From a virus: a stretch of DNA of 41,662 bases. Shown in pieces: positions 1,117 through 37,895 of the stretch; the stretch's first letter is position 1, and each line of letters starts with the position of its first letter. Position numbers and translations under genes: made by a program. The DNA lies in the IMG/VR virus record IMGVR_UViG_3300044986_000742, positions 1 through 41,662 of that record. One strand, given 5' to 3'. The notes under the pieces are model-generated. The model was given only the letters and a program-made list of their open reading frames with translations. It was not told the origin of the DNA and did no database searches.

Positions 1117-1128
1117 TTTGACTAAACC
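1117..1128 (-). promoter_or_regulatory. 12-bp dispersed element (GGTTTAGTCAAA), inverted copy
   Basis: Exact copy, reading TTTGACTAAACC on the + strand. It lies between the tail tube stop (1105) and the next ATG (1130), directly in front of that start. Its role is inferred: stoperator-like repressor site (see findings). Confidence 0.7.
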
Positions 1129-1129
1129 C

Positions 1130-1546
1130 ATGAGCCAGCCCGTTCTTCAACTTCGCATGTTTGACCGCGACAAAGACCACGCCACGCTGGTCGAGTGGTG
1201 TGACGCGCACGGGACCGTTGCCACGCCCGCGGTTTTTTTGCCGCCGCTGGGTGTCGTCACCCAAATGGACGGCCAAGATGCCGCCATGCTTTTTGTCTAC
1301 TACGCGCTCTCGACGCCCGTGGCCTTTGTCGATTGCGCGGCCACGCGCCCCAAGTTGCCGCTCAAAGATTCCGTGGCGTGTCTGGAGTTCGCTTACAACT
1401 TTCTCAAAAGCGAAGCCAAGCACGACGGTTATGCCGTCATGCTGGCCAACGTGACCAAGCCCTTTGCGCGGCTCATGGGCCGCGTCGGCTTTCAAACTCA
1501 AGAGGAGGGACTGACCAGAATGTTCGATCTGGCCGTCAGCGACTGA
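1130..1546 (+). CDS. GNAT-fold internal virion protein, T7 gp13 position
   Basis: A 138-residue protein. The tail VMLANVTKPFARLMGRVGF followed by a short strand resembles the end of a GNAT acetyltransferase fold, where a helix precedes an R/G-x-G-F strand. In T7 and relatives the gene between gp12 and gp14 (gp13) encodes a GNAT-like internal virion or assembly protein, and this gene sits in exactly that slot. The ATG at 1130 is preferred over an upstream TTG at 1118 because the 12-bp element overlaps the TTG. The stop TGA overlaps the next ATG (ATGA-type coupling at 1544-1548). Catalytic activity cannot be judged from the sequence; a structural role is equally likely. Confidence 0.65.
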   Translation: MSQPVLQLRMFDRDKDHATLVEWCDAHGTVATPAVFLPPLGVVTQMDGQDAAMLFVYYALSTPVAFVDCAATRPKLPLKDSVACLEFAYNFLKSEAKHDGYAVMLANVTKPFARLMGRVGFQTQEEGLTRMFDLAVSD

Positions 1547-2238
1547 TGCCGATGATTCCTCCAGCCGTGGCCGCAACCGTTGCCACCTATTCCGCCATCG
1601 CCGCCACCGCAGCTTCAGTGGGTGCCGCGGGTCTGTCGTTCTACGGGCAACAACAGCAAGCCGCCGCCAGCCAGCGCATGGCGCAATACAACTTCTCCGT
1701 GCAAAAGGCCCAGATGGAAATGCAAAACCAGATGGCCGCGCAGGCTTCGCAGCAGCAAGCCGCAATCTTCGGCTACAACGCACAGGTCGCGCAAAACGAG
1801 GCCAACCGCACCGAAATGGAGGCCCGCGAACGCGCCCGCCGGATGCGGTCCGAAAACGAGCGCATGCTGGGCCTGCAACGCGCCGCCTACGGCAAGAGCG
1901 GCGTGACCAGCGAGGGTTCGCCCTTGATGATCATGGCCGACACCGCGGGCCTTGGCGAACTGGCTGTGGCCGACGAACTTTACAAAGCCGACGCCCAGCG
2001 CAGCGGACTTTTCACGCAGGCCGCGCTGGAGCAATACAAGGGCCGCATGGCGCAGTTTGAGGGCGCGGGATATTCCCTCAACGCGGCCAACGCCGGAACC
2101 TTCGCCCGACCGGCGCTCATGCAAGGCATGAACGAGGCGTCCGCGCTCCGCACCAGCAGCTACGGGTCGCTGATTAGCGGTGTGGGCAGCGCGGCCAATT
2201 CGCTTTCGGGATTACCCATCCGCGGGAGGTCACGCTAA
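1546..2238 (+). CDS. Internal virion (core) protein, T7 gp14-like
   Basis: A 230-residue protein with a hydrophobic Ala-rich N-terminus (about residues 5-30: PPAVAATVATYSAIAATAA), which could insert in a membrane, then a long Gln/Ala/Arg-rich helical stretch (about 35-125). A motif of the type GKSGVTSEGSPLMIMADTA follows, recurrent in podovirus gp14-type internal proteins. These are ejected into the host envelope with gp15 and gp16 to build the DNA conduit. The start overlaps the preceding TGA by one base and the TAA overlaps the next ATG, so the gene is translationally coupled on both sides. The family call comes from motif plus order; the ejection role is from the family. Confidence 0.75.
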   Translation: MPMIPPAVAATVATYSAIAATAASVGAAGLSFYGQQQQAAASQRMAQYNFSVQKAQMEMQNQMAAQASQQQAAIFGYNAQVAQNEANRTEMEARERARRMRSENERMLGLQRAAYGKSGVTSEGSPLMIMADTAGLGELAVADELYKADAQRSGLFTQAALEQYKGRMAQFEGAGYSLNAANAGTFARPALMQGMNEASALRTSSYGSLISGVGSAANSLSGLPIRGRSR

Positions 2239-4307
2239 TGGCCAACATTCCCACAGCCCAAATCCCCAACGTGCAGACCGCCGTCGGCAACGCGCCGACG
2301 CTGTCTCCCAGCGCCGTCCGCACGCCCAACATCCAGCGCATGCCGGTGCTGGGACGCGAAGTCTTCGACGGCGTGGGCGCGGGCATGGTGGGCTTGAGCC
2401 GCGGCGTTTGGGAAGGGTCGCAGATGCTGGGCGATTTTGCCACCAAGATGTCGGCGCTCAACGACCAAGCGCAAATTGCCGAAGCCGACAAGCTCATGTC
2501 CGACGCGATTGCCAAGCACTCCGCCGAACGCATGACGCTGCCGGAGAGCGAGTGGGCCAAAAACTGGAACGACAAATACCGGCCCAAGCTCGACGAATCC
2601 ATTGCCCAAATGCCCGTCACGATCGATGGCAGGGCGCGGCTGATGTCTTGGTATACCGGCAAGCAGGCCGCGATGGGCGCAGACATCACCGTCGAAAGCC
2701 AAAAGAATTTTATCCGGCGCTCGCTGGATTCGGTGCAGGCCCGCGTGGACCGCGCCAAGACCGACCGCAATCCCGAAGAGGCTTATGTGGCCATCGCCAA
2801 CTTGAAGGGCTTGGTCAGCGACGAGCAGATCGAACGCATGAACGCCGACGTCTATCAATGGGAAAAGGCCGAAACGACCCGCGAACTCTGGGAAACTATC
2901 GACACGCAGATGGTGCAGCGTTTGGCTGACGGAACCTTGGCGGAAAACGAGGAGGTGACCGCGGATCTGCGCCAAGCCGTCGAAAGCGCATCGTTTAAAA
3001 GCAAATTTTTCCCCGCGCTTAACGGCGAGTCAGCCGACATGAAAAAGGCGCTTAAAATGTGGGAAGACTACAGCCGCAACGCGACCATCGACAAAATGAA
3101 CGAGGCCGTCACCGGCATTGCCGAGGGGCAATACGGGACCGCCGACGAACTGCGCGAAGAATACGGCGACAAGCTCGACACGCTCAACATGCAGAAGCTG
3201 GAAGCCACTTGGGCGCAATCGCCCGAAGAGCAGTCCAAGCGCCTTGCCCAGCGCCCGCAATTGATCACCGCCATCGATCTCTACGATCCGGCCAGCGACC
3301 CAGAGTCCAAGGATTTTGACCGCCTACTGTCATGGGTTCACACCATGCCCGCAGGTTTCCAAGCCGACTTAAGCCAGATGCTGCGCGACAAAAAGAAGGA
3401 CGCCCAGCCCAAGCCCAGCACCGCCATCGAAGCCATCAAGCAGCGCAGCCGCGAGATGTTCGACGCGGGCAAATACGGTTCCACCGGCAACGAAGAGGCG
3501 TGGCAGATGGCCAAGACGCGCCAGTCCCGCGAGATCGACATGCTCAACAGTTGGGCCGCGGCCAACCCGAAGGAGGCCGCCGACGCCACCAAGGTCACCG
3601 CGCAATACAACGAGATCCGCACCAAGATTTACCAAGAGGACATGGCCGACGGCACCGCCGAGATGCCCAAGCCGGAGATGCTCAAGCCGCCAACCCTCAA
3701 CCCGCGGCGCGTCTTGCAAGACCCGCGCCTGCGCGATGAGGACGAGTCGCCGCTTGACGCCGTCCAGTTGCCAATGGGCGATGGTTCGTGGCAAGTGACG
3801 CCGCAGACCCGCGACCAGATCAAGACCTCCAGCCGCGCCGGTCAGCGGCAGATTTCCTTGGATTTCAACTCCGGCGTGGCCACCAGCCGCGGCGTGGAGA
3901 TTGTGATCCCGCACGACGCCACACCCGAAGAGCGGGCCGCGGCACAGGCGTATGTGGACAAGACCGTCGCGTGGTATCAGTCCAAGGGCATTGAAGTTCC
4001 GAAAGGCCGCGTGCTAACCAAGACGGGCAGGGGGGCCAAGGTCAGCCGTTTCCACACCGAGCCGTTCTACGTCCAAGACGCCGACGCGATGGCCGCGGTG
4101 CAAAACGACCCCGACGGCTACGCCGCCATCTTGGAAGACACCTTGGGCCGGTTGACCGGCGCGACCTTTATCGCCCCGCACAAGACCAAGGACGGCGGCG
4201 CACAAAACGACACAATCAACGAACGCGACTTCGCCCGCAGCTACGTCATCCCCGCGCTCCAGCGGCGCAAGGGCGAGGAACCCACCCTCATGGCGCAAAA
4301 TGAGTAG
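2238..4307 (+). CDS. Internal core/ejection protein, T7 gp15 position
   Basis: A 689-residue, mostly helical, charged protein without cysteine clusters or membrane segments. The N-terminus is Pro/Asn-rich (residues 1-45) and is followed by a long helical region with many KAEAD/RARVDRAKTD-type heptad-like stretches. Size and position between the gp14-like and giant gp16-position proteins match T7 gp15, a tubular internal core protein ejected into the periplasm. Sequence similarity to T7 gp15 is not obvious by eye, so the assignment is mainly positional. It overlaps the previous stop by one base (TAATG) and the next start by eight bases. Confidence 0.65.
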   Translation: MANIPTAQIPNVQTAVGNAPTLSPSAVRTPNIQRMPVLGREVFDGVGAGMVGLSRGVWEGSQMLGDFATKMSALNDQAQIAEADKLMSDAIAKHSAERMTLPESEWAKNWNDKYRPKLDESIAQMPVTIDGRARLMSWYTGKQAAMGADITVESQKNFIRRSLDSVQARVDRAKTDRNPEEAYVAIANLKGLVSDEQIERMNADVYQWEKAETTRELWETIDTQMVQRLADGTLAENEEVTADLRQAVESASFKSKFFPALNGESADMKKALKMWEDYSRNATIDKMNEAVTGIAEGQYGTADELREEYGDKLDTLNMQKLEATWAQSPEEQSKRLAQRPQLITAIDLYDPASDPESKDFDRLLSWVHTMPAGFQADLSQMLRDKKKDAQPKPSTAIEAIKQRSREMFDAGKYGSTGNEEAWQMAKTRQSREIDMLNSWAAANPKEAADATKVTAQYNEIRTKIYQEDMADGTAEMPKPEMLKPPTLNPRRVLQDPRLRDEDESPLDAVQLPMGDGSWQVTPQTRDQIKTSSRAGQRQISLDFNSGVATSRGVEIVIPHDATPEERAAAQAYVDKTVAWYQSKGIEVPKGRVLTKTGRGAKVSRFHTEPFYVQDADAMAAVQNDPDGYAAILEDTLGRLTGATFIAPHKTKDGGAQNDTINERDFARSYVIPALQRRKGEEPTLMAQNE

Positions 4308-11977: not shown

Positions 11978-11989
11978 GGTTTAGTCAAA
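11978..11989 (+). promoter_or_regulatory. 12-bp dispersed element, copy before the tail fibre gene
   Basis: Exact GGTTTAGTCAAA, eight bases before the tail fibre ATG (11998) and 25 bases after the stop of the giant ejection gene. With the 18-bp repeat it fills this 45-base gap. No Shine-Dalgarno is visible, so the element lies where a ribosome-binding site would normally be. Confidence 0.75.
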
Positions 11990-11997: not shown

Positions 11998-14232
11998 ATG
12001 GCCGTCCAGTCCGATACATCACGCATTTCCTACGCAGGCAATAACTCGACCTCGACGAGTTATGCCGTGCCGTTTGTGTTCTTGGAGAACAGCCACCTCA
12101 AAGCCATCGCCAAGACCAGCGCCGGAGTCGAAAGCGTCGTCACGCTGACCAACCACACCGGAGCCGGAGACGTCAACGGCGGCACCGTCCGCACCGCGGT
12201 CGCCATCCCCGCGACCAGCACGCTCACCATCTACCGCGACGTCCCGATCACCCAGACGACCACCTACGCCGAAGGCGGCGATTTCCCCGCGGCCAGCCAT
12301 GAGCGGGCGCTTGACAAACTGACCCAGATCACCCAGCAAAACGCCCGCCAGATTGGCAGCAGCATCCGCTTTTCCGAAGCGACCCAGATTAACCCCGTCA
12401 ACCCGCCGGTCAGCACCACGCCCCACGTTTTAACGACCGTCAACGGCGGTGCGCCCACGTGGGAAACTGTGCCTTCGGTTAGCTTCCCCGATTCCCTTAA
12501 CGCGCTCACCGACGCCACGACTGTCAACGCCGCCGACGAGCTAATTATTCAGCAGTCCGGCATTACCAAGCGGGCCACAGCGACCGAAGTGGCGGCTGGA
12601 CTTTTTGCAACAACGGCAGAACTCGACATCCCTGCGAGTAGCCCCAACCAAGAATATTCTCAAAACGGCGCACGGGTCCACCGGCTGGCTGACAAGCTGC
12701 TGGTTGGCGGGGCGGTCGCCCACAGTGGTTCGCTGGAGTTTGACCCCATTGCAAACCGCTTTCTCTCGCAAACGCCAGACTGGTTTGGCGAGTTTCAGCA
12801 AGACAAAAACCTAATCCGCATTGTCGGTGCGTCGGCTTCTGGCGTGACGATGGGTCCGAAAACCATTGCGTCGATCAGCATTGCCACAGGCACTGCGACC
12901 GCCACGCTGACGGCGCACGGTTACGCGAACGGTCAAAAGATCATCGTCAGTGGGGCCACGCCGTCCGGCCTTAACGGCACGCACACCATTACGGTGACCG
13001 ACGCCAATACGTTTACATATACGACGGCGGCGACCGGAGCCGTGTCTGTCGCGGGAACCGCCAGCAATCCCGTTGTTACCTTCACCGCAGGCGGCATCGT
13101 GCCGGAAGCTGGCGCATACATTTTCAGCGAAGCAATTCCGCCCGACACCAAGATATCCACCGTAGACAGCGCCACCCAAATTACGCTGGACAAGGGCGCG
13201 ACGGCATCGGCCACTGGACTGACGCTGTGGTCAAGCCGCGCAGCCGATCTTTACACAGGCACCGCCTTTGGCCAGATCCGAAGCCTCAACAACGAGCACC
13301 AAGCGAGCGCGTTTGGCGGGACATTCGCCTCGCAAAGTCGGCACTTCAATGCCGCCGGAACGTCATGCATTGGCGTGACGGCGTTTGCGGTCAACAACCA
13401 CGCCACGTTGGCGACAAGCTGCTGGGGAGGATACTTTGAGGCTTTCCGCATAAACTCGACGGTGGGCGGCGCTCGCGGTATTGAGATTGACGTTGTCTCC
13501 TGCTCTTCGGGCGAAATTCTTCCAAACGCTTTCCAGCAATCGCAGACTGCTTGCATTCAACTTGGCGCTGGCAATGGGTTGGCGGGAGAGTTGCAAACGC
13601 AACCAGCGCCAGCGGCAAAGGTTCCCCAAGTTAACATTGGTGCCGCCATCCAAGTGCTGCCCAATCCCATGCGCTTCCGCGCTGGTATCGTGTTCAATAG
13701 TCGCAGCATTGAAGGCACGGATGGCTACACCGGAACGGGCCGCGCCATCGCAATGGGAACCGGTCACGGCATCGAATGGCACAATCCGTCGCAGGACATG
13801 GTGTCGAGGATCGTGTGTCTTACTGGCATCACTTCGGCGCAGCGGACAGAAATTCGTTTTGGTCCGAGCGGTGTGCAGTTTTTCGGGGCGGGCGGAACCA
13901 GCGGATTTATTTTCAATAGTAGCCCGACCACGCTGGCCAACTGGTGGACGTTGGCTGGAGCCGCAACCAACCAGCCGGTGACAATTAGCTCCTCTGGAAC
14001 CGACACCAACGTCGATCTGCGATTGTCCTGCCAAGGCACCGGCGTCCTTCGCTTCGGCACTCACGCTGCCAGAGGCGCAGTCACAAAGCCAACCGGAGGA
14101 GGAACCATAGATGCAGAGGCTAGAACGGCCATTGATGCCTTGATTGACATCATTGCCGATGGAACCGCCGCCGGTCATATCACGATCAAAGATACCGCAG
14201 GCAACACCCGCAAGCTCGCAGTCGTCAGCTAA
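11998..14232 (+). CDS. Tail fibre protein with T7 gp17-type N-terminal domain
   Basis: A 744-residue protein. Residues 1-150 match the T7 tail-fibre N-terminal domain, which anchors the fibre to the tail: a YAVPFVFLENSHLKAIAKT-type segment, then LTIYRDVPITQTTTY, then FPAASHERALDKLTQITQQ. Around residues 280-365 is a small beta domain with AHGYANGQKIIVSG and TITVTDANTFTY, also seen in the tail tube protein. The rest is Gly/Ser/Thr-rich beta sequence ending in an IDALIDIIADG...ITIKDTAGN-type segment, as in fibres that trimerise at the C-terminus. It should bind the host receptor. No endosialidase or lyase motif was recognised. Confidence 0.85.
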   Translation: MAVQSDTSRISYAGNNSTSTSYAVPFVFLENSHLKAIAKTSAGVESVVTLTNHTGAGDVNGGTVRTAVAIPATSTLTIYRDVPITQTTTYAEGGDFPAASHERALDKLTQITQQNARQIGSSIRFSEATQINPVNPPVSTTPHVLTTVNGGAPTWETVPSVSFPDSLNALTDATTVNAADELIIQQSGITKRATATEVAAGLFATTAELDIPASSPNQEYSQNGARVHRLADKLLVGGAVAHSGSLEFDPIANRFLSQTPDWFGEFQQDKNLIRIVGASASGVTMGPKTIASISIATGTATATLTAHGYANGQKIIVSGATPSGLNGTHTITVTDANTFTYTTAATGAVSVAGTASNPVVTFTAGGIVPEAGAYIFSEAIPPDTKISTVDSATQITLDKGATASATGLTLWSSRAADLYTGTAFGQIRSLNNEHQASAFGGTFASQSRHFNAAGTSCIGVTAFAVNNHATLATSCWGGYFEAFRINSTVGGARGIEIDVVSCSSGEILPNAFQQSQTACIQLGAGNGLAGELQTQPAPAAKVPQVNIGAAIQVLPNPMRFRAGIVFNSRSIEGTDGYTGTGRAIAMGTGHGIEWHNPSQDMVSRIVCLTGITSAQRTEIRFGPSGVQFFGAGGTSGFIFNSSPTTLANWWTLAGAATNQPVTISSSGTDTNVDLRLSCQGTGVLRFGTHAARGAVTKPTGGGTIDAEARTAIDALIDIIADGTAAGHITIKDTAGNTRKLAVVS

Positions 14233-18630: not shown

Positions 18631-18642
18631 GGTTTAGTCAAA
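18631..18642 (+). promoter_or_regulatory. 12-bp dispersed element before the lysis genes
   Basis: Exact GGTTTAGTCAAA, ending two bases before the GTG of the next gene (18645). Upstream lies AACCCTTGACCACC (18605-18618), a weak relative of the AAACYCTTGCGCCA repeat found near other copies. Confidence 0.75.
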
Positions 18643-19808: not shown

Positions 19809-19891
19809 TGATCACCGGCATTGTGCTTACGGTGCTGATGTATCTGGGGCTGCTGGCGTTTGGCTACTGGCTATCGAAGCAAGAGGGGTGA
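19805..19891 (+). CDS. Tiny single-pass membrane peptide, 28 residues
   Basis: It reads MMITGIVLTVLMYLGLLAFGYWLSKQEG: one membrane helix with a short charged tail. It overlaps the endolysin stop (ATGATGA) and runs 65 bases into the 3' end of the oppositely oriented integrase gene. Its place after the endolysin suggests a lysis accessory, but there is no lipobox, so it is not an outer-membrane spanin. Very short; support is coupling and hydrophobicity. Confidence 0.4.
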   Translation: MMITGIVLTVLMYLGLLAFGYWLSKQEG

Positions 19892-21005
19892 GCGCCTTGG
19901 CCATCGTTTCGATGGAGGCGTGGGTGTAGTTGTTGCTGACCTTCGTCGAATCATGGTCGCAGATTAGCTGCCGGACGCGCTGATCGACACCGGCATCGAC
20001 GAGCAGGGAGTTAGTCGTGTGACGCCATGAGTGGAAGGACTTGTCGGACTGCTGCCGACCCTTGCCGGTCTTTTTGCTGATGGCGCGTTCGACGCCCGCC
20101 TTGTCCAGCAGGCGGATAAAATTGCGGGACGCCACGCTGGCTGACATGGCCGCGAGGGTTGGCGTGATCTTGCCGGAACCGCGGAGGCCGACCAGTTCGC
20201 CCATCAGCGGCACCGAGACGACGACGCCCTTGCGGCTCTTTTTCTCCGGCACAAAGTGCAGGACGCCGTCCTTGATCTCCTCGTGGCTCCGGCGAGTGGC
20301 GTCCCCGATCCGCATGCCGTAGAGCAACCCAAACAAACAGGCTGTGCGCCACTCCGGCTCCGCGGCGGCGAGGATGGCGGTGATCTCGTCCTTGGTAAAA
20401 GCCTTCCGGCTGGTGCCTCCGGTGCGGTGCAGTGACACAAGCTCCGCTGGATTGACGTCGATTTGCCGCAGCAGGACGGCCCGCTTTAGCACCGAGCGGA
20501 CGGCCTTGATGATGTAGACGACGGTGGATTCGGCCAGCCCGCTGTCGGCCAGCGATTGCCGGAACTCCGCGATGTCGTCGGCGGTGATGCCGCGCAAATC
20601 GTGACCGGCGCGGACGCCCAGCCAGCGCGTGAAATGGGCGACGTCATTGCGATACTTCTCCAGCGACCGCGGCTTGGACGCCTTGGCGGCAAGCCAGCCC
20701 TCCGCGGCCTTGTTCCATGTGACCGTCTTTTTGGGACTGGCAACATTGGCCAGTCTGACCAGCGCATCCACGCGGGAAGCATACCAATGCTCGTCTGGCA
20801 CCACAGAGCGTAGCTCACGCGCTGTCCGCTCCATTTCGTCGGCAAACGCTTTAGCTGCCCGTTTAGGCGTTGTTTTGTGCGGTAGCTTGGTGCTACGCAT
20901 AGTGAGTCGCCAAAAGCCGCCACGGGCGTATTCCGGCGAAGCAACCCACACGCGCATGCGACCGATCCAATATGGTGAAGACGGGATCATGATTACGGAT
21001 GCCAT
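19827..21005 (-). CDS. int: Tyrosine recombinase integrase
   Basis: A 392-residue integrase that inserts and excises the phage at attP/attB. The N-terminal 45 residues are a basic arm-binding-like region (SPYWIGRMRVWV). A SAM-like core-binding domain spans about 95-190 and the catalytic domain about 200-375. Catalytic residues are visible: R232 (GMRIGDA), a basic turn near 256-259, H325 and R328 (HSWRH), H351 and Y360 (NNYTH). All five key positions are present, so it should be active. It is the only clear minus-strand gene and converges with the lysis genes. Its start faces the attP region, usual for temperate phages. M1 at 21005 or M6 at 20990 could be the start. Confidence 0.93.
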   Translation of the reverse strand: MASVIMIPSSPYWIGRMRVWVASPEYARGGFWRLTMRSTKLPHKTTPKRAAKAFADEMERTARELRSVVPDEHWYASRVDALVRLANVASPKKTVTWNKAAEGWLAAKASKPRSLEKYRNDVAHFTRWLGVRAGHDLRGITADDIAEFRQSLADSGLAESTVVYIIKAVRSVLKRAVLLRQIDVNPAELVSLHRTGGTSRKAFTKDEITAILAAAEPEWRTACLFGLLYGMRIGDATRRSHEEIKDGVLHFVPEKKSRKGVVVSVPLMGELVGLRGSGKITPTLAAMSASVASRNFIRLLDKAGVERAISKKTGKGRQQSDKSFHSWRHTTNSLLVDAGVDQRVRQLICDHDSTKVSNNYTHASIETMAKALTPLASIASSQTPAAPDTSAP

Positions 21006-21102
21006 GAGCCAAACCTACCACAGCCAGCTATACATTAAAACCCCTAAAATGCATAAAGGAAAAGGGTCGTTTTACTCTGTTACAGAAGCACTTACACAAA
21101 AC

Positions 21103-21128
21103 GAGGGTTCGATTCCCTTCACCCGCTT
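21103..21128 (+). other. attP core: 3' end of a glycine tRNA
   Basis: The bases form a T-arm (GAGGG, loop TTCGATT, CCCTT) followed by an acceptor 3' strand CACCCGC and a T. That is the 3' quarter of a bacterial tRNA whose 5' strand would be GCGGGTG, typical of tRNA-Gly. There is no tRNA body upstream (no anticodon arm or D-arm), so it is not a functional tRNA gene. It is the identity block that restores the host tRNA after integration. Confidence 0.8.
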
Positions 21129-21214: not shown

Positions 21215-21226
21215 TTTGACTAAACC
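21215..21226 (-). promoter_or_regulatory. 12-bp dispersed element, inverted, start of early region
   Basis: Exact copy, reading TTTGACTAAACC on the + strand. It ends two bases before the ATG of the first early gene (21229), which has no visible Shine-Dalgarno. Confidence 0.7.
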
Positions 21227-21228
21227 GC

Positions 21229-21408
21229 ATGCCTTACGCCGATCCCGACCAGCAGCTTGCCGCCATGCGCCAACGCTACGCCGAGCGGTATGCCAGCGAC
21301 CCGAAGTTCCGTAAGGCAGAATCCAAGCGCAAGGCCCGCTACTACGCCGAGAACCCCGCCTACCAGCAGCGCGTCAAGCGCAAGGTCAAAGCCCGCCGGT
21401 CAAAATAA
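21229..21408 (+). CDS. Small basic protein, 59 residues, putative nucleic-acid binder
   Basis: The protein begins MPYADPDQQLAAMRQRYAER and contains about 17 Arg/Lys residues, ending KVKARRSK. 'MPYxDPxxQ' starts followed by a basic helix are common in short phage DNA-binding or HNH-associated proteins. Here no Cys or His metal site exists. As the first gene right of attP and adjacent to a 12-bp element it could be a regulator or an excisionase-like factor; this is inference from size, charge and location. Confidence 0.5.
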   Translation: MPYADPDQQLAAMRQRYAERYASDPKFRKAESKRKARYYAENPAYQQRVKRKVKARRSK

Positions 21409-21819: not shown

Positions 21820-21856
21820 TTTCGGACGCCCGAAAAATATTTTTATTTTCCTATTG

Positions 21857-21869: not shown

Positions 21870-21879
21870 TGGTCTATAG

Positions 21880-21892: not shown

Positions 21893-21924
21893 TGATGAAT
21901 AAATCCTCAACTAATCCACACACA

Positions 21925-22469: not shown

Positions 22470-22649
22470 ATGCCCACCACCACCGAACCCACCATCCGAA
22501 AAACCATATCGTTCCCTCGCAGCCTTGTCGTCCGGCTGGCCGCGGAGGCCAAGTCCGAGCGCCGCCGGTTCTCACCACAGGTCGTCAAAGCCCTTGAGGA
22601 CTTTTTCGCGCCCGCAACTGTCAGACAGTCGAAGGGAGGCCAGCGATGA
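22470..22649 (+). CDS. Second ribbon-helix-helix protein, 59 residues
   Basis: It begins MPTTTEPTIRKTISFPRSLVVRL. IRKTISFP is the DNA-contacting strand, RSLVVRLAAEAKSERR helix 1, and FSPQVVKALEDFFAP helix 2, giving a complete minimal RHH fold. The strand motif 'RKT-L/I-S-L/F-P' is shared with the first RHH protein, so both could recognise the same operator. A perfect operator palindrome (22617-22629) lies inside its own 3' end. Its TGA overlaps the next ATG. Two RHH regulators in 1 kb recall the Arc/Mnt arrangement of P22. Confidence 0.65.
   Translation: MPTTTEPTIRKTISFPRSLVVRLAAEAKSERRRFSPQVVKALEDFFAPATVRQSKGGQR
22617..22629. promoter_or_regulatory. Palindromic operator 3, inside the second RHH gene
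   Basis: ACTGTC-A-GACAGT, perfect 13-bp palindrome in the codons for T-V-R-Q near the C-terminus. Its perfect match within coding sequence, 750 bp from the other copies, indicates selection at DNA level. Confidence 0.65.
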
Positions 22650-22987
22650 CACTCATCGATAAAGCCCACGCCGCTCCCCGCGGCGACCAGCGCAACTACA
22701 GCCACGAACTTGTCGATGCCGTCGAAGTGTTGCGGTCGAAGGGCTGGGGCTTCCGCGCCATTCACCAGTGGCTCGCGGACGAGGGCCAAGACATCAACCC
22801 GAACTGGGTCACTTTCGCGTCGGCCATGTGCCAGCGCATCAACCACCGCAGAAACAAAACCAATGAACCAAGAACCCACCTACACCGTTCCCGCACTTAC
22901 CTGCATGGAACTGGTCAGCATCCGAGTGGCGCTCAAGCACAACTTGTGCCGCTTCTGGAAATGGCGTCACGACACAACGTGGCGTGA
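22646..22987 (+). CDS. Small early protein, HTH-like, 113 residues
   Basis: Residues 15-70 (NYSHELVDAVEVLRSKGWGFRAIHQWLADEG, then NWVTFASAMCQRI) are arranged like a short helix-turn-helix region, with 'LRSKGWGFRAIHQWL' as the likely recognition unit. After about residue 72 the frame overlaps the gene at 22863 and becomes Arg/His/Gln-rich and less protein-like. The original end may therefore have been earlier. Function unknown; a regulatory role is possible. ATGA coupling to the RHH gene upstream. Confidence 0.5.
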   Translation: MTLIDKAHAAPRGDQRNYSHELVDAVEVLRSKGWGFRAIHQWLADEGQDINPNWVTFASAMCQRINHRRNKTNEPRTHLHRSRTYLHGTGQHPSGAQAQLVPLLEMASRHNVA

Positions 22988-25448: not shown

Positions 25449-25840
25449 TCACCGCAATTATTCAAGGCGACCCGCCGACGGTCACCGCCCAGCAGAAGGG
25501 CGTGATGGTCCGCGGCGGTCGTCCCATGTTTTTCACGAAGAAAAAGGTCAAGGACGCGCAGGACGCGCTGGTCTTGCAACTTCGGCAATTCAAGCCGCGT
25601 CAGCCGGTCGAGTTTCCGGTGCTGATTAAGATCAAGTTCGCCTTCCGCGTGACCAAGGCGCGACCCAACGAGCGCATCCACGCGGTGCGGCCCGACCTTG
25701 ACAACTTATGCAAGGGCGTCCTCGACGCGCTGGTGCCTGCCGGTTGGGTTGCGGACGACGCGCTGGTTGATCAACTCGTCGCGGAGAAGTGCCGCGTGGC
25801 AGATCCGTATTTGGAAATCACGATGAAGGAGAGGTTGTGA
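25445..25840 (+). CDS. rusA: RusA-family Holliday junction resolvase
   Basis: A 131-residue protein with the RusA active-site segment RPDLDNLCKGVLDAL (D84, D86, N87, K90, D94), then VADDALVDQL (D104, D105) and K115. RusA dimers cut four-way junctions produced by recombination and replication, which suits the RecE/RecT genes just upstream. The length is close to E. coli RusA (120). The ATG at 25445 overlaps the preceding stop and its own TGA overlaps the next GTG. Confidence 0.88.
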   Translation: MITAIIQGDPPTVTAQQKGVMVRGGRPMFFTKKKVKDAQDALVLQLRQFKPRQPVEFPVLIKIKFAFRVTKARPNERIHAVRPDLDNLCKGVLDALVPAGWVADDALVDQLVAEKCRVADPYLEITMKERL

Positions 25841-26676
25841 AGCTGGACGCCAATTTTATCACTCACTGGAAGACCGAGCGCCTGCTGGAAGCATGCGGGC
25901 CGACCGCGGTCTTGGGACTGCTCCGGCTTTGGGGAGACGCGCAGAACAAGCGCCAGTGGCGCGGTCTGACGCTCAACCCGCGCAAGCTGGCCGCGATCAT
26001 GCGCCACGATGGCGATGCCGACGCGCTCTGGGCCGCGATGACCGACAAGGACTCGCCGTGGCTCGACGAGGAGCCGGAGGGAACGTGGGCTATTCATGGG
26101 TTCGACGAGCACAACCGCCAGCTACTGCACCTTTGGGAAGCCGGTCGCAAGGGTGGCCGTCCTACTAAAGACAATACTAATAATGGTAGGGTAGGGCTTG
26201 GCGCATATGAAAAGCATATGGATACCATATGCAAACCATATGGTTTTTCTACAGAGAGCGTCACGACCCCCACCTTGGAGGAGTTCAAGGCCGCGGCGCT
26301 TTTGATGGGCGTCGAGGAGGCGATTGCTGAAGAGGTCTGGCACGATAACGAGTCTCGCGCCATCGCTCCGACCGGCGAGTGGACCGACTGGAACGGACGC
26401 CCGATTGCCAACTGGCGTTCCAACCTCAAAGCCAGAGCCGCCCAGATTGCGCGTAAACGCCCGTCCAAGGCTTTGACTAAACCCAAGGGGGTCTGGGACG
26501 CCAAACAGGGCATCGACGCCTTAAACGCGAAGCTGGAGCGAATGAAGGCCAATCCGAAGTTCCGGCGGCAAAGGGAAGAGACGCCGTGGGAGACGGAGTG
26601 GACGCCGGAGGCGAAAGCCGAGGTGGCGCAGATACGTCAGAAAATCCGCGAACTGGAAGGGGTGGTGGCGGCGTGA
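25837..26676 (+). CDS. Phage replication initiator / replisome organiser-like protein
   Basis: A 279-residue protein with a GTG start preceded by AAGGAGAGG. The N-terminal domain (residues 1-95: KLDANFITHWKTERLLEACG, LLRLWGDAQNKRQWRGLTL, RKLAAIMRH) looks like the winged-helix DNA-binding part of phage O/DnaD-type initiators. A linker (about 105-140) contains the CATATG iterons. The C-terminal part has EWTDWNGRPIANWRSNLKAR, a motif found at the end of many phage replisome organisers. It probably binds the repeats inside its own gene and loads the host helicase. A 12-bp element lies in codons 213-216. Confidence 0.7.
   Translation: MKLDANFITHWKTERLLEACGPTAVLGLLRLWGDAQNKRQWRGLTLNPRKLAAIMRHDGDADALWAAMTDKDSPWLDEEPEGTWAIHGFDEHNRQLLHLWEAGRKGGRPTKDNTNNGRVGLGAYEKHMDTICKPYGFSTESVTTPTLEEFKAAALLMGVEEAIAEEVWHDNESRAIAPTGEWTDWNGRPIANWRSNLKARAAQIARKRPSKALTKPKGVWDAKQGIDALNAKLERMKANPKFRRQREETPWETEWTPEAKAEVAQIRQKIRELEGVVAA
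26161..26250. other. Putative replication origin with four CATATG iterons
   Basis: CATATG occurs at 26204, 26215, 26226 and 26237, each exactly 11 bp apart, next to an A+T-rich stretch (26164-26185). Within it GCATATGG-ATA-CCATATGC (26214-26232) and AAACCATATGGTTT (26233-26246) are perfect palindromes. It lies in the linker of the replication gene, as lambda ori lies inside gene O. The origin role is inferred. Confidence 0.7.
26472..26483 (-). promoter_or_regulatory. 12-bp dispersed element, inside the replication gene
   Basis: Exact copy, + strand TTTGACTAAACC, in the codons for A-L-T-K-P. One of four copies inside coding sequence. Confidence 0.65.
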
Positions 26677-26707: not shown

Positions 26708-26914
26708 ATGCCCAACACGCTGGAGTCCTACATCCAGAACGTCCTGCACGATGACGAGATTACGGTGATGAACATTCTCGCAGAGCATTGCTATCTCGTT
26801 TCGGACAACGCTTTTCGCGCCGCGGACGTCGCCAACTCCGGTGAAGTTGTCGCGTGGATGGAGCGCAATCCGCACTACTTTCGCAAAGGTTTAGTCAAAA
26901 CCAAGAGACGATGA
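26708..26914 (+). CDS. Small early protein, 68 residues
   Basis: A helical acidic protein (MPNTLESYIQNVLHDDEITV, then NAFRAADVANSGEVVAWMER) with a basic end that reads RKGLVKTKRR. The G-L-V-K near the end is encoded by a copy of the 12-bp element. No domain recognised. It overlaps the next small ORF by four bases (ATGA). Confidence 0.55.
   Translation: MPNTLESYIQNVLHDDEITVMNILAEHCYLVSDNAFRAADVANSGEVVAWMERNPHYFRKGLVKTKRR
26888..26899 (+). promoter_or_regulatory. 12-bp dispersed element at a gene end
   Basis: Exact GGTTTAGTCAAA in frame as Gly-Leu-Val-Lys, 15 bases before the stop of the 26708 gene. The following bases make GGTTTAGTCAAAACC, a short hairpin also present at 37884. Confidence 0.7.
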
Positions 26915-31110: not shown

Positions 31111-32642
31111 AGCCCGACCTCGCCAATCCCCTTTGGCGACTCCGCAATCTTTACCACATTAAACGGGCCGACGACGGGCGCATCATCAAGTTTGCTCCGC
31201 GACCGGAGCAGCAGCGGGTCTACGACATGCTCTTCAAGCAGGGTGTCAAGCGGCTTATCATTCTCAAAGCGAGGCGGCTGGGCATGTCCACCGCCCTCGA
31301 CGTATTGTTGACCGACCAGATGCTGTGGAACGCGGGCACCCAGTGCAGCCTTGTCGATCAAACCGCCGCGGATGCCGAGCGCAAGCTGGCGACCATTGCC
31401 AAGGTCGCGGTGGACAACTTGCCCAGCGGCACCTTGCAGCACGTTGAGCGGGTGCGCGACAGCGGCTCTATCCTTGAAGTCAGCGTGGCCGGTAACGTGG
31501 CCTCGTCCTTCTTTGCGGGCCTCCGCGCCCGCGGCGGCACCAACAACTGGCTGCATTTGAGCGAGTGGGGCGTCATCCAAGCCGACGACCCGCGGCGCTC
31601 CGAGGAAATTCTGACCGGCGCGATCCCGTCCGCCGAGCATGGCCGGATCATCGTCGAAACCACTTGGAAAGGCGGGCGAGGGGGCCACCTGTGGGACATC
31701 GTCAAGGGAGCCTTGGAAACACCGGAAGAGGCCAAGACGGACAAGGACTGGCGCGTGGTCTTTTTCCCATGGTGGAAAGACCCGACCTATGTGGTGGAGG
31801 GCGATGTGTCCACGGTCAGTCCGGCAATCAGTCAGTATCTCGACGAGATGGAGCGCACCACCGGCCACACCTTCACGCCGCAGCAGCGGCTCTGGTACGA
31901 CCGGCAGCAGCGGCAACTGGGCCTCTTTATTTACCGCGAGTTCCCCACCACCTTGGACGAGTGCTTCAAGTCGCCGGTCGAGGGCGCGATCTACGCCGCG
32001 GAACTCGACAAGCTCCGCGCCTCCGGAGCGATCAGCGCCTTCAAATACGACAACAGCACGCTTGTCCACACCGCGTGGGATCTGGGCAGTCCGGTCAATA
32101 CGGTGGTCTGGTATTTCCAAGTGATCGGCGGCAACGAGATCCGCGTGATCGATTGCGACATGGACATGGACATGACTCCTGTCCAGCGCGTCGGCCACAT
32201 GCTGGCCAAGGGATACAGCTACGGGGCGCACTTCCTGCCCCACGATGCCGCGGCGACCCGAACCAGCGGCAAGGCTGACGCTCAAGTGTACACCGAGGCC
32301 GGACTGGCCAACGTGCGCGTGCTGCCAAGGACGCATGACATCTGGATCGGGATCAATGCTTGCTTGCAAATGTTCCCGCGGTTCTCGTTCCGCCTGCCTG
32401 CCTGCGAGCGTGGGCTGGATGCCTTGGCCAACTACGCCTACAAGCGCAGCAGCGCGACCGGCATTGTGGTCAACGAACCGGTGCATAACTGGGCCAGCCA
32501 CGCCGCGGACGCGCTCCGGATGATTGCCGAGGCCGAGATGGCGGGCATGCTCAAGACCGGCTTTGCCAAGCCGCGCCCGACCGTAGTGACAACCGGCATC
32601 CGCGACTTGGACTTCAACCGCCGAACCATTGTGAGACGATGA
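31101..32642 (+). CDS. Terminase large subunit
   Basis: A 513-residue packaging motor. The ATPase domain shows a deviant Walker A, LKARRLGMST (K56, T64), as in many large terminases, and a Walker B-type WLHLSEW (E155). The coupling region is HGRIIVETTWKG. The nuclease domain contains TAWDLGSP (D327), VIDCDMDMDM and later HDAAATR, with a closing SHAADALRMIAE, an RNase H-like arrangement. It cuts and pumps concatemeric DNA into the procapsid through the portal at 33371. The short ATPase-nuclease arrangement without extra domains fits podovirus enzymes. Confidence 0.9.
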   Translation: MAVKPDLANPLWRLRNLYHIKRADDGRIIKFAPRPEQQRVYDMLFKQGVKRLIILKARRLGMSTALDVLLTDQMLWNAGTQCSLVDQTAADAERKLATIAKVAVDNLPSGTLQHVERVRDSGSILEVSVAGNVASSFFAGLRARGGTNNWLHLSEWGVIQADDPRRSEEILTGAIPSAEHGRIIVETTWKGGRGGHLWDIVKGALETPEEAKTDKDWRVVFFPWWKDPTYVVEGDVSTVSPAISQYLDEMERTTGHTFTPQQRLWYDRQQRQLGLFIYREFPTTLDECFKSPVEGAIYAAELDKLRASGAISAFKYDNSTLVHTAWDLGSPVNTVVWYFQVIGGNEIRVIDCDMDMDMTPVQRVGHMLAKGYSYGAHFLPHDAAATRTSGKADAQVYTEAGLANVRVLPRTHDIWIGINACLQMFPRFSFRLPACERGLDALANYAYKRSSATGIVVNEPVHNWASHAADALRMIAEAEMAGMLKTGFAKPRPTVVTTGIRDLDFNRRTIVRR

Positions 32643-33028
32643 CGCCGATCGAAAAGTGCAAGATGCTTTACACCGCGGACAGCCCGCGGACGTTTGAGGA
32701 GGACATGCTGGCGCACCTCTCGCATGGCTGTTTTTTCTCGACGCCGGATTATGTGATGATGGCGCGTCCGGTGTGCAGCGCCGCCCCGCAGGAAATGATC
32801 AACGACGTCTGGTGTGGCTTCCAGCGCAAGGACTGGGATGCATGGTATGTCTACGCCTTTGCCTTGGCCGACGACCAAGGTCTGGCGGGTTTAGTCAAAA
32901 AACTATTGCGCCACATACCGTTTTATCTTCCGCTCATCGCATGGGAGAGGAGCGGCCATCCGCTGACTTTCTTTTCGACCGACAAACTCATCCAAAAATA
33001 TGCGATTCTACAACTCGTCCAAGATTGA
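32639..33028 (+). CDS. Conserved-type phage protein between terminase and portal, 129 residues
   Basis: A protein of mixed helices (TPIEKCKMLYTADSPRTFEE, DWDAWYVYAFALADD) with 'FSTPDYVMMARPV' and a basic-aromatic C-terminal half (HIPFYLPLIAWERSGHPLTF). GNAT-like podovirus proteins in this position often end 'KHPIRFYPTDRL', and the sequence here (SGHPLTFFSTDKLI) is similar, so a divergent member of that family is possible. The Gly-Leu-Val-Lys at codons 84-87 is encoded by a 12-bp element. Overlap ATGA with the terminase. Confidence 0.55.
   Translation: MTPIEKCKMLYTADSPRTFEEDMLAHLSHGCFFSTPDYVMMARPVCSAAPQEMINDVWCGFQRKDWDAWYVYAFALADDQGLAGLVKKLLRHIPFYLPLIAWERSGHPLTFFSTDKLIQKYAILQLVQD
32888..32899 (+). 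promoter_or_regulatory. 12-bp dispersed element inside a coding region
   Basis: Exact GGTTTAGTCAAA, in frame as Gly-Leu-Val-Lys in the gene before the portal. It uses TTA, a leucine codon rarely seen in this GC-rich genome. Confidence 0.65.
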
Positions 33029-33374: not shown

Positions 33375-35062
33375 AAGACAACGTCCAACTGGCCGACTGG
33401 GTGCTGGCGAGGAACCAAGACCTCGCCGCCGAGCGTGCCCCGTGGGACACCCACTGGCAGGAGTTGAGCGAATACTTCCTGCCGCGCAAGGCCGAGATCA
33501 GCAGCAAACGCAGCGTGCCGGACAGTTCGCGCCACGATGTCCTTTTCGACACCTCCGCCGTCCAAGCCGCGGCCACGCTGGCCAACGGGCAATTGGCCTA
33601 CATCACGCCCGCCGACTCGCGCTGGTTCACCTACGAGCCGCCCAAGGGCGTGACCAGCGACAAGGCCAAGCAGTGGTATTCGCGGTGCAGCGAGGCCACG
33701 CAGCTGCTCTTGGCCACCAGCAACGTCTACACCGAACTGCACGAACTGTATTACGACGACAGCGTCTTTGGCACCTACTGCATGTTTGTCGAGAAAGGCA
33801 TCAGCCATCCGGTGGTCTTCACCAAATTCGACATCGGCACCTACAGCTTGGCCGAAGATGACGAGGGTTTAGTCAATACCGTCTTCCGCGAACTGGAACT
33901 GACCGTCCTGCAAGCCGCCGAAAAGTTTGGCGAGGACAACCTTGCTCCGGCCATGAAGAAGCGGCTGGCCGATATCCGCGCCACCGGCAAAGGCGGCACG
34001 GTCAAACACAAGTTCATCCATGCCGTCTACAAACGCGAGGACAACGACCGCGACCGCAGCAAGGCCGACGGCCCGAACAAGCCTTGGGCATCGGTTTACG
34101 TTGACCAGAGCAACAAGCACGTTTGCCGCAACAGCGGTTATGACGAGAAACCTTTCTTTGCCGGTCGCCATGTCAAAAGCCAGCAGGGCGTCTACGGGGT
34201 CTCTCCGGCGTGGATGGCTTTGCCGGAGGCCCGCCAACTCAATTTCCTTTCCAAGCAACTTGACGCCCTCGCGGAGATCAAGGCTTTCCCGCGCCTCTTG
34301 ATGCCTGCAACTCATGAAGGGGAAGTAGACTTGCGAAGCGGGGGCGTCACCTACTTCGACCCCACCCAGCCCAACGCCATCCCGCAGGAGTGGGCGACCG
34401 GCGGCGACTATCAGATCGGCTTGGACCGCGAGAACCGCAAGACCGCGGCCATCAACCAAGCGATGCATGTGGACATGTTCCGCATGTTCGCCAGCTTGGA
34501 GCGGCCCAACATGACGGCCACCGAGGTCGCGGAGCGGGCCAGCGAAAAGCTCGTCCAGTTTTCACCCAGCTTCACGCGCAAGACGACCGAACTGCTCTCG
34601 CCCATGCTGCGCGGAGTTTTCGGCATCTTGATCCGCAACGGGCATTTCCCGCCGCCGCCGCCGGACGCCATCCTTCTCGACCAGATGGGCCAGCCGATCA
34701 TTCCGGAGCCGGAAGTCAGCTATGTGTCCAAGGTCGCCTTGGCCATCCGCGCCATGCAGAACCTTTCCTTGGCAAGGACGATGGAGCGCAACGCGATTAT
34801 CGCGCAAGTGCGGCCCGAAGTGCTGGACAACTTCAAGTGGGACGTCATCTCCCGCGAAACGGCCCGCAACGACGGTCTGCCCGCCGACTGGCTGGCCGAG
34901 GAGGACGAGGTCGAAGAGGCCCGCGCCGCCCGCGCCGAGGCGCAGGCCAAGATGGCCCAGCAGCAGGAGATGCTCACGATGGCCGAGGCCGCGGGCAAGG
35001 CCGGTAGCGTCAAACAGGATTCCGCACTGGGCAAGCTCTTCAATCAAGCCACCGGCACATGA
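33371..35062 (+). CDS. Portal (head-tail connector), T7 gp8-like
   Basis: A 563-residue protein of the podovirus head-to-tail connecting family. It begins with a GTG (KDNVQLADWVLARNQ). Early motifs are RAPWDTHWQELSEYFLPRK and DTSAVQAAATLANGQLAYITP, then RWFTYEPP and CSEATQLLLATSNVYTELHELYYD. Central NRKTAAINQAMHVDMFRMF and NMTATEVAERASEKL are the conserved portal core. A Glu/Ala/Gln-rich coiled C-terminus (EEDEVEEARAARAEAQAKM) is typical. Twelve copies form the vertex ring through which DNA enters and leaves. A one-mismatch 12-bp element lies in its codons. Confidence 0.9.
   Translation: MKDNVQLADWVLARNQDLAAERAPWDTHWQELSEYFLPRKAEISSKRSVPDSSRHDVLFDTSAVQAAATLANGQLAYITPADSRWFTYEPPKGVTSDKAKQWYSRCSEATQLLLATSNVYTELHELYYDDSVFGTYCMFVEKGISHPVVFTKFDIGTYSLAEDDEGLVNTVFRELELTVLQAAEKFGEDNLAPAMKKRLADIRATGKGGTVKHKFIHAVYKREDNDRDRSKADGPNKPWASVYVDQSNKHVCRNSGYDEKPFFAGRHVKSQQGVYGVSPAWMALPEARQLNFLSKQLDALAEIKAFPRLLMPATHEGEVDLRSGGVTYFDPTQPNAIPQEWATGGDYQIGLDRENRKTAAINQAMHVDMFRMFASLERPNMTATEVAERASEKLVQFSPSFTRKTTELLSPMLRGVFGILIRNGHFPPPPPDAILLDQMGQPIIPEPEVSYVSKVALAIRAMQNLSLARTMERNAIIAQVRPEVLDNFKWDVISRETARNDGLPADWLAEEDEVEEARAARAEAQAKMAQQQEMLTMAEAAGKAGSVKQDSALGKLFNQATGT
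33866..33877 (+). promoter_or_regulatory. 12-bp dispersed element, one mismatch, inside the portal gene
   Basis: GGTTTAGTCAAT, in frame as Gly-Leu-Val-Asn (codons 166-169 of the portal). Only the last base differs from the consensus. Confidence 0.55.
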
Positions 35063-35353: not shown

Positions 35354-35365
35354 GGTTTAGTCAAA
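35354..35365 (+). promoter_or_regulatory. 12-bp dispersed element between portal and scaffold genes
   Basis: Exact GGTTTAGTCAAA, four bases after a stop and 26 bases before the scaffold ATG. The rest of the gap is CA-rich with no ribosome-binding site. Confidence 0.75.
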
Positions 35366-36267: not shown

Positions 36268-36271
36268 GGCT

Positions 36272-37012
36272 ATGGCGAGCAAAACCAAGGGCTGGCAGAA
36301 GTTTCTGGCCTGCACATGCACGCATGGCAGCGAGGCCGACCCGCGGGCGCTGGACGCCATCCTGCGCCTACGCGAGGCGTGGAAACCGGACTTTGTCCTG
36401 CATCTGGGCGATGCCATCGATGTCCGCAACATGCGGGCCGGAGCGCGGCGGGACAGCACTGATCCCGACTACGGGGCCAGCATGACCGACGACGTCTTGC
36501 AGGGGCTGGCGTTCCTGCAAGAACTGCGCCCGAACATCTACCTCTTCGGCAACCATGAGGCGCGGCTTGCACAAATGCAGCACAGTGCCAGCGGCGTCCA
36601 TCGGGACGCGGCCCTTGGCATCATGGACCGCATCCAAACGGCGTGCGACAAGATGAAGTGCCGGATCATCCCCTACAAGGGCGTGCATGCCGACTGCGCG
36701 TTTTTGCTGGGCGACACTGCCTTCATCCACGGGGCGCTCTTCGGAGTCAGCGCCGTGCGGGACGCCGCCGAATACTTCGGGCGCAGCGTGGTCATGGGCC
36801 ACACCCACCGCGTGGCGATGGAGTCAGCCCGCATCCACGCCAAGGCCACCGGCTACAACATCGGCTGTGGGGTCAAGCTCGACATCGAATACGCGGCCAC
36901 CCGCCGCCAAACGCTGGGCTGGCGGCACGCCGCGGCCTACGGGCATTTCAACGGGAGCCACTGCATCGTCAACATTGCGGTTTTCGATCCGCACTACCAA
37001 CTGCCGCTGTGA
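36272..37012 (+). CDS. Calcineurin-like metallophosphoesterase
   Basis: A 246-residue protein with all five motifs of the family: ACTCTHG (H18, with C-T instead of the usual D before it), HLGDAID (D47, D50), LFGNHE (N94, H95, E96), FIHGAL (H153) and VMGHTHR (H177, H179). The first metal ligand (normally D-x-H) reads C-T-H, so one metal site is altered. Relatives cleave phosphodiesters of nucleotides, nucleic acids or lipids. It is inserted between scaffold and capsid, four bases after the scaffold stop, so it is expressed late; its substrate is unknown. Confidence 0.8.
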   Translation: MASKTKGWQKFLACTCTHGSEADPRALDAILRLREAWKPDFVLHLGDAIDVRNMRAGARRDSTDPDYGASMTDDVLQGLAFLQELRPNIYLFGNHEARLAQMQHSASGVHRDAALGIMDRIQTACDKMKCRIIPYKGVHADCAFLLGDTAFIHGALFGVSAVRDAAEYFGRSVVMGHTHRVAMESARIHAKATGYNIGCGVKLDIEYAATRRQTLGWRHAAAYGHFNGSHCIVNIAVFDPHYQLPL

Positions 37013-37254
37013 AAAAGCACGCCGATGCCGAACTGTCCGCGTGGTGCGCGGTGCTGTCCTCGCCCGCGCCGGTCGAGACGGTTCCCGAAGGCTGGCTGAC
37101 CGCCCGCCAGATTGCCGCCAAGCTGGGCAAGGGCAACAGCACGGTGGGCGCATTGCTGGTCCGCGCCGTGCGCGACGGAAAGGCCCAGCGGCAAAACTTC
37201 AAAGTGACTTCCGGCCAAGTGACGCGGCCCATCCCGCACTACCGACTAACATGA
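37009..37254 (+). CDS. Winged helix-turn-helix protein, 81 residues
   Basis: A GTG-started protein overlapping the phosphoesterase stop. Residues 28-60 (GWLTARQIAAKLGKGNSTVGALLVRAVRDGK) are a good helix-turn-helix with recognition helix NSTVGALLVRAV, and QRQNFKVTSGQVTRPIPHYRL would be the wing. It is probably a DNA-binding regulator, unusual within a late structural cluster. It is followed immediately by the HExxH protein (ATG overlapping its own TGA). Confidence 0.65.
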   Translation: MKKHADAELSAWCAVLSSPAPVETVPEGWLTARQIAAKLGKGNSTVGALLVRAVRDGKAQRQNFKVTSGQVTRPIPHYRLT

Positions 37255-37541
37255 GTCGTCGCATCCCCACCAAACGCGTTTCCATCGACGGCAAGCCGTG
37301 GCGGATCAAGATCCAGCGCCCACCGGCCCGCGAAGTCTACGACGGGCTGTGTGTCAAAGACGACAAGACAATCTACATCCACCCCGACGCCATCAGCCAC
37401 CGCGGCATCGAACTGGCCTGCCATGAAGTCGTGCATGCCCGTCTCTTCGACTTGGACGAGGAGTGTGTGGACGAAATCGGGCGTCTGGTCAGCGAGGTTT
37501 GTAACTGGCTGGCGCGGCACAACGACGGAATCATTTCGTGA
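37251..37541 (+). CDS. HExxH zinc-metalloprotease-like protein, 96 residues
   Basis: The protein has IELACHEVVHARLFDLDE (H58-E59-x-x-H62) and then ECVDEIGRLVSEV (D74, E75 as the third ligand position). This is the core of gluzincin-like or ImmA/IrrE- and SprT-related small proteases. A beta region precedes it (RVSIDGKPWRIKI, YDGLCVKDDKTIYIHP). Partner candidates are the scaffold, the capsid or the neighbouring winged-helix protein; in ICE/phage ImmA systems the protease cleaves an adjacent repressor. The arrangement here resembles that, but it is inference. Four-base overlap with the next gene. Confidence 0.65.
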   Translation: MSRRIPTKRVSIDGKPWRIKIQRPPAREVYDGLCVKDDKTIYIHPDAISHRGIELACHEVVHARLFDLDEECVDEIGRLVSEVCNWLARHNDGIIS

Positions 37542-37693
37542 CCTTTGTTCCGCTCCTCATCTGCACGATCTGCTACGGCTGGACGGCGGTGGGCTTTTAC
37601 ATGCAGAGCAACTACCCCATGTCGGCGGTCTTTGCCGGTTACATGTTTAGCAATTTCGCTTTTTTGTACATATCGCTGACGACATGTCGATAG
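37538..37693 (+). CDS. Small two-helix membrane protein, 51 residues
   Basis: A GTG start overlapping the HExxH gene's TGA. Hydrophobic segments FVPLLICTICYGWTAVGFY and SAVFAGYMFSNFAFLYISL could span the membrane twice with a short loop (MQSNYPM). No known motif. It closes the inserted cassette; the 220-bp capsid leader follows. Confidence 0.5.
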   Translation: MTFVPLLICTICYGWTAVGFYMQSNYPMSAVFAGYMFSNFAFLYISLTTCR

Positions 37694-37704
37694 CTTCGAC
37701 ATTT

Positions 37705-37716
37705 TTTGACTAAACC
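37705..37716 (-). promoter_or_regulatory. 12-bp dispersed element, inverted, left edge of capsid leader
   Basis: Exact copy, + strand TTTGACTAAACC, fused to a near copy of the TAAACYCTTGCGCCA repeat (37711-37725). It faces the copy at 37884. Confidence 0.7.
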
Positions 37717-37883
37717 CTTGCGCCACTTTCCGGCGCAGCGTAATCGTCAGCACAGTTAGGCAGACACCTCCTTGTTGAGCCTGCCCGACGGCAACCCAAG
37801 GCCGACGACCCGTCACGAACGGATACTCGGTAGCGCCGCGGGACAGAAAACCAACAACAACCCGACCGAATCGGCGCGATGCC

Positions 37884-37895
37884 GGTTTAGTCAAA
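37884..37895 (+). promoter_or_regulatory. 12-bp dispersed element, right edge of capsid leader
   Basis: Exact GGTTTAGTCAAA, immediately upstream of the capsid ribosome-binding site (AAAGGAG at 37899-37905). Confidence 0.75.

Follow-up and report, generated by a model that had tools for sequence, protein, structure and literature searches.

A dispersed asymmetric 12-bp element at conserved gene addresses in a temperate podovirus, a probable operator of a phage-encoded regulator

A handful of phages are known to silence the whole prophage through dispersed operators. In mycobacteriophage L5 the sites lie mostly in one orientation, and their reversal abolishes repression (PMC6550527, PMC9283540). 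In the Gram-negative temperate phage P1, lytic genes are silenced by C1 at 22 dispersed asymmetric operators of 17 bp (PMC8546580), and in SPbeta a repeated intergenic element, SPBRE, occurs across the prophage and is bound by the master repressor MrpR, which keeps lysogeny (PMC10516654). Here we describe a short element, GGTTTAGTCAAA (the 12-mer), scattered over the viral record IMGVR_UViG_3300044986_000742, which was analysed in full (G000; 41,662 bp, 60% GC; the window). A preliminary description of this DNA had likened the element to the stoperators of L5 and held such a system to be new outside the actinobacteriophages, for which P1 C1 and SPbeta MrpR are precedents (PMC8546580, PMC10516654). 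Judging from its sequence and distribution, the 12-mer is almost certainly where a switch protein of the phage binds DNA. On balance we consider it the probable operator, in dispersed copies, of a trans-acting protein encoded by the phage, most likely the lysogeny or immunity repressor.

A motif scan of the window identified 10 exact copies of the 12-mer and two copies with one mismatch (Table 1), at the coordinates given in the preliminary description, and its counts of eight intergenic sites and of eight sites along and four against transcription were reproduced as well. The directions refer to the main rightward transcription; site 21215 lies between the leftward integrase gene and the rightward early genes, so that "against" is only relative there. 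A start codon is found 0–26 bp downstream of seven of the eight intergenic sites, and the remaining four sites are within genes (26472, 26888, 32888, and 33866). Two weak matches with two mismatches each were found at positions 7639 and 17537. With up to two mismatches allowed, the window contains 14 copies where 1.85 are expected, a number that none of 100 dinucleotide shuffles reached. A blind search for repeated 12-mers also returned GGTTTAGTCAAA as the top element of the record (score 11, compared to approximately 4 in shuffles), and the fuller form of the element reads GGTTT-AGTC-AAAaC.

Scanning with the portal protein yielded 69 related viral loci, and this search among related phages, which had been suggested earlier, placed the 12-mer at corresponding positions in nearly all of them (about 65 contigs). 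Gene addresses were compared between the window and 13 fetched relatives. Those that recur are the two upstream of the capsid gene (one 18–22 bp away, one reversed and approximately 200 bp away), upstream of the gene at the scaffold position, 8 bp upstream of the tail-fibre gene, upstream of gene 21229, inside genes 26708 and 32639, and, reversed, in the replication gene. Many relatives contain a further copy within the giant virion-protein gene.

The sequence at these addresses differs between clades. In a sister clade (72% portal identity) essentially all sites read GGTCTAGTCAAA, in G015 and G416 they read GGATTAGTCAAA, and in G412 and G413 they read GGTGTCAGTCAAG, which is dispersed at L235 76, 6254, and 9395 and at L236 1635, 5517, 7472, and 10611 (joined coordinates of G412 and G413). 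In G019–G023 (45% portal identity) a 14-bp dyad, GGTGT-N4-ACACC, is present, here too upstream of the capsid and fibre genes. Such a coherent, genome-wide change of the motif between clades calls for one trans-acting DNA-binding factor that reads the sites. A scan with the small helix-turn-helix (HTH) protein 22646 retrieved further carriers, G414–G416, that the portal scans had missed, so that motif and early cassette move together. In most of the distant Verrucomicrobiota prophages no dispersed motif stood out; repeats were observed in distant prophages of G278 and G202. The coherent change also bears on the idea that the 12-mers act at module borders as recombination linkers that aid RecT-mediated gene shuffling. 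Many sites are indeed located where genes meet, and relatives differ in the genes that follow 11978 and 29057, but the sister clade changed all its sites together, which linkers would not need, and conserved in-gene copies and orientation flips do not fit. We regard linkers as very improbable.

Selection on the element can be followed where it overlaps coding sequence. In genes 32639 and 26708 the site is read as the codons GGT-TTA-GTC-AAA, with the synonymous CTA in the sister clade. Of 50 relatives, 43 retain the TTA codon in gene 32639, although TTA makes up only 1.4% of the leucine codons, and the codons of the 12-mer in gene 26708 are kept in 27–30 of 30 relatives. Judged by this codon usage, the 12-mer is under selection at the DNA level within coding sequence. 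We also considered and rejected an RNA element as the nature of the 12-mer: the possible stem is disrupted by the changes in G011 and G015, which no second change compensates, and the site is found in either orientation. A further explanation is that the phage acquired a host signal, such as an uptake or segregation motif or the site of a host regulator, for which the earlier text had proposed the frequency in the host as a test. Across 376 Verrucomicrobiota genomes we found 44 copies of the 12-mer, at most three per genome and no more than of a reversed control, compared to 10 copies in the 41.7 kb of the phage. This comparison is at the level of the phylum, to which the host is assigned by inference, and so leaves some room for a host signal, but that explanation is largely refuted and seems to us exceedingly improbable.

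The gene content is that of a temperate podovirus, with a tyrosine integrase, RecT, a PD-(D/E)XK gene, RusA, terminase, portal, capsid, and tail genes; by portal identity (approximately 30%) the nearest cultured phages are of the Pelagibacter HTVC010P type and Bordetella BPP-1. The integrase looks active from its sequence, as the boxes GMRIGD, HSWRH, DHDS, and NNYTH keep the R, HxxR, H, and Y residues, and its presence together with a probable phage attachment site (attP) indicates a temperate phage. The 24-bp attP core is found exactly in 79 of 376 Verrucomicrobiota genomes and related portal genes in 40 of 388, pointing to Verrucomicrobiota as the probable host phylum. The nearest known relatives in bacterial genomes are prophages of Verrucomicrobiota. 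A contig scan for close prophages recovered only one distant metagenome-assembled genome of Spartobacteria.

Table 1. Features of the window and of related sequences. Positions refer to the window unless a handle (L or G number) is given.
Feature	Position	Strand	Location or role	Basis and occurrence
12-mer	1117..1128	-	directly 5' of ATG 1130 of gene 1130-1546	exact; homologous reversed site in G001, G005-G007, G009-G011, G014
12-mer	11978..11989	+	8 bp 5' of tail-fibre gene 11998-14232	exact; address shared with relatives, reversed in G011 and G014
12-mer	18631..18642	+	2 bp 5' of gene 18645	exact; address shared with G010, G016
12-mer	21215..21226	-	flanked by integrase/attP and early gene 21229; probably the main operator	exact; 2-4 bp 5' of 21229 homologue in G001, G004, G006, G007, G010; opposite orientation in G011
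12-mer	26472..26483	-	within replication-initiation-like gene 25789-26676	exact; reversed copy in that gene in most relatives
12-mer	26888..26899	+	within gene 26708-26914, encodes Gly-Leu(TTA)-Val-Lys	exact; codons kept in relatives
GGTATAGTCAAA	29037..29048	+	8 bp 5' of gene 29057	one mismatch; identical variant and place in G001, G002, G003
12-mer	32888..32899	+	within gene 32639-33028, encodes Gly-Leu(TTA)-Val-Lys	exact; TTA kept in relatives
GGTTTAGTCAAT	33866..33877	+	within portal gene; weak, probably not essential	one mismatch; no copy in most relatives
12-mer	35354..35365	+	26 bp 5' of gene 35392 (scaffold-like position)	exact; address shared with relatives, flanks conserved
12-mer	37705..37716	-	5' edge of capsid-gene leader	exact; reversed copy ~200 bp 5' of capsid gene in relatives
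12-mer	37884..37895	+	18 bp 5' of major capsid gene 37914-38822	exact; 18-22 bp 5' of capsid gene in relatives
Tyrosine integrase	19827..21005	-		Pfam Phage_integrase 2e-10; PHROG integrase 3e-37
Probable attP core (tRNA-Gly 3' end GAGGGTTCGATTCCCTTCACCCGC)	21102..21125	+	between integrase and early genes	sequence
59-residue basic protein	21229..21408	+	second candidate binder	in nearly all carriers; no family or PDB match
Small HTH protein	22646..22987	+	favoured candidate binder	in all 12/13-mer carriers; three-helix HTH-like model, local confidence ~85
Structured RNA-like leader	37753-37845	+	5' of major capsid gene	covariation
Same RNA-like leader elsewhere	L230 15323, L117 6886, L118 7196, L229 5620 (-), L226 14003 (-), L121 6263, L124 280
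CRISPR-like arrays (G056, G134)	L158 6897-7300; L159/L158 16700-17310; L160 16714-17535

A repressor is the simplest reading of the sites, since the phage is temperate and they are located beside the early operon and at the starts of late-gene blocks. About 8–12 operators would occupy fixed places in the gene order, with one separating integrase/attP from the early genes and the remaining ones at the starts of structural-gene blocks or within genes in mid-operon. Bound at 21215, the protein would block initiation of the early genes, and in the prophage this site would also be downstream of the host tRNA promoter. At the dispersed sites it would form a roadblock to elongation or read-through; we favor this over promoter control alone because not every site within an operon can be a promoter operator. 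Relative to transcription, 82 of 122 exact sites are oriented with it and 40 against it, and compared to the window, G011 or G014 carries the fibre and early sites in the opposite orientation. Because of these flips at homologous places, polarity does not appear essential at the fibre and early addresses, where at least the protein would have to act in either orientation.

Several observations weigh against a repressor. No sigma-70-like promoter was identified near the capsid sites or 21215, so we infer the promoter part of the mechanism. No CI-like or L5-like repressor was recognizable in Pfam, NCBIfam, and PHROGs among the early and small genes. G411 encodes 21229 and also a 22646 whose recognition helix is near-identical, yet lacks the motif. 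Finally, a regulator of the lytic cycle would leave the same marks in the sequence. The sites could be bound by such a protein (an activator, a timing factor, or one that prevents read-through), or they could belong to phage-specific promoters in which TTTAGT serves as a -10-like element; late genes start 0–26 bp after sites, and TTGACC or TTGCGC is present 17 bp upstream of TTTAGT at 18631 and 11978. However, a -10 element is directional, whereas a third of the sites are reversed and flips occur at homologous places; moreover, in-gene sites are conserved and the spacing to a -35-like element is not general (11 at 29037). We therefore consider this explanation unlikely, though it deserves more weight than linkers or a host signal.

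To narrow down the binder, gene content was compared between carriers of the 12/13-mer and relatives without it. Three non-structural families are common to carriers, namely the integrase, 21229, and 22646. The integrase of G412 is a distant match only, which counts against the integrase as the binder, and 21229 was not seen in G412, whose contig ends at that place. Based on its distribution and its predicted structure, we tentatively favor 22646, which the preliminary description had not named, although a fold search with the model gave no significant PDB match and the motif-free G411, with its near-identical recognition helix, counts against it. The basic protein 21229, which the preliminary description had named, is a doubtful second choice; a substantial share of the probability goes to the integrase or to another protein. 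None of the candidates 22646, 26708, 21229, 36994, and the ribbon-helix-helix (RHH) proteins had a sequence match in the PDB. If the reading is correct, the binder would prefer the site of its own clade (GGTTTAGTCAAAAC versus GGTCTAGTCAAAAC).

Two other genes were rejected. Gene 26708-26914 tracked the motif at first, but it is missing from the carrier G416 and its model has no fold match in the PDB. The winged-helix gene 36994-37254, an earlier candidate, is absent from the carriers G014, G015, G414, and G415. The latter gene is followed by one for a small HExxH-type protein (ACHEVVHARLFD); the pair (36994-37541) adjoins the capsid operon and recalls repressor/metalloprotease partners, with no confident family match.

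The RHH proteins, likewise proposed before, fit poorly. Either of the two small RHH proteins encoded in the early cassette could be the binder, acting as in a cousin prophage of the Verrucomicrobiota genome G223, where two divergent RHH genes enclose three 14-bp sites, two of GGTGACTAGACACC and one of GGTGTATAGTCACC, one of which adjoins a start codon (contig 3, L166/L167, joined positions 34039–34132). From this arrangement, the triplet is likely an RHH-controlled switch. RHH genes were found in every carrier examined, and the dyad sites of G019–G023 resemble the G223 operators. Yet the RHH proteins differ strongly among phages with an identical 12-mer (the window and G016 versus G417), and the type of G417 is shared with G411, which lacks the 12-mer. 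Also, the RHH genes of the window have their own local palindromes, CTGTCNGACAG, and the RHH gene of G412/G413 is flanked by GGTGGTTATACACC and not by the dispersed 13-mer. An RHH binder is thus rather improbable, slightly more so than 21229. Repeats of the CTGTCNGACAG type are found beside the small RHH genes at 21560–21575, 21855–21895, and 22620–22635, overlying a sigma-70-like promoter, TTGACT-17-TAGACT, at 21854–21882; they are probably a separate local RHH operator.

A bolder reading, which we hold to be less likely than not, is a silencing network with a new type of repressor, either the approximately 75-residue HTH protein 22646 or the 59-residue basic protein 21229, that would act in either orientation. 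Between clades, the tag at the conserved genomic addresses would be exchanged throughout the genome, an asymmetric 12/13-mer giving way to a symmetric 14-bp dyad.

A conserved non-coding stretch between the two 12-mer copies upstream of the capsid gene folds as RNA (Table 1). Two-sided changes were found in 13 of 20 predicted pairs, and 93% of cells were paired compared to 81% in shuffles, in an alignment that was fitted to the model and hence leans towards structure. No Rfam match was found. We take the leader for a new RNA with strong covariation. Distant relatives carry it in the corresponding position, and it recurs more weakly upstream of the capsid gene in relatives without the 12-mer; the leader seems unconnected with the 12-mer system and may regulate capsid synthesis. 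At the 5' edge of the leader, a terminator scan showed that the T-run of the 37705 copy joins a terminator-like hairpin (37684–37702).

Two observations concern other parts of these genomes. Arrays resembling clustered regularly interspaced short palindromic repeats (CRISPR) occur near prophage portal genes of the Verrucomicrobiota genomes G056 and G134, with a repeat containing GTGCGTGGATTGAAAC and a unit of approximately 66 bp. In the window, one large tail gene is divided between the two ends (39990–41662 and 1–1105), and its reading frame is shifted at the junction when these are connected. The record therefore looks like a circularly permuted and almost complete genome that contains a short overlap or gap, or an error.

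Compared to L5 and other Cluster A phages, the system shares short asymmetric sites dispersed in a temperate phage, many of them in short gaps near start codons, and a clade-specific consensus that shifts among relatives. The GGTGTCAGTCAAG site of G412/G413 matches the L5 consensus, as quoted in the preliminary description, at 11 of 13 positions, a lead that may reflect common origin but is possibly a coincidence. In contrast to L5, where sites point mostly one way, 40 of the 122 exact sites are in reverse orientation, flips are seen at homologous addresses, and there are 8–12 sites here versus more than 20 in L5. Matching the candidates to the PDB revealed no two-domain repressor of the L5 type (HTH plus Stoperator domain, approximately 183 residues). 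As the orientation differs and no such repressor was found, we do not class the system as L5-type: of the stoperator-like interpretation put forward earlier, the dispersed, asymmetric, phage-specific site, the trans-acting factor, and the layout hold, while strict stoperator behavior does not.

The operators of P1 C1 occur in either orientation. The dispersed asymmetric sites described here resemble them in this respect, whereas the P1 operator, ATTGCTCTAATAAATTT, is unlike that of the window in sequence and length, and P1 is a plasmid prophage. No C1-type repressor with Coi/Lxc was found among the Pfam, NCBIfam, and PHROGs matches of the early and small genes, a search of family libraries only. 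MrpR of SPbeta is a protein of tyrosine-recombinase fold that lacks the catalytic residues, whereas the only tyrosine recombinase found in the window keeps them. By analogy, then, the system works like dispersed-operator silencing, of a kind already known from few phages, and this instance is new. With it, at least five versions of the motif form a natural series at conserved addresses, in phages of a bacterial phylum that has received little study, and comparison can now test how a repressor changes its specificity jointly with its dozen or so sites. The orientation flips at homologous addresses also speak to an open point of the L5 model, namely whether silencing by a roadblock requires a polarity.

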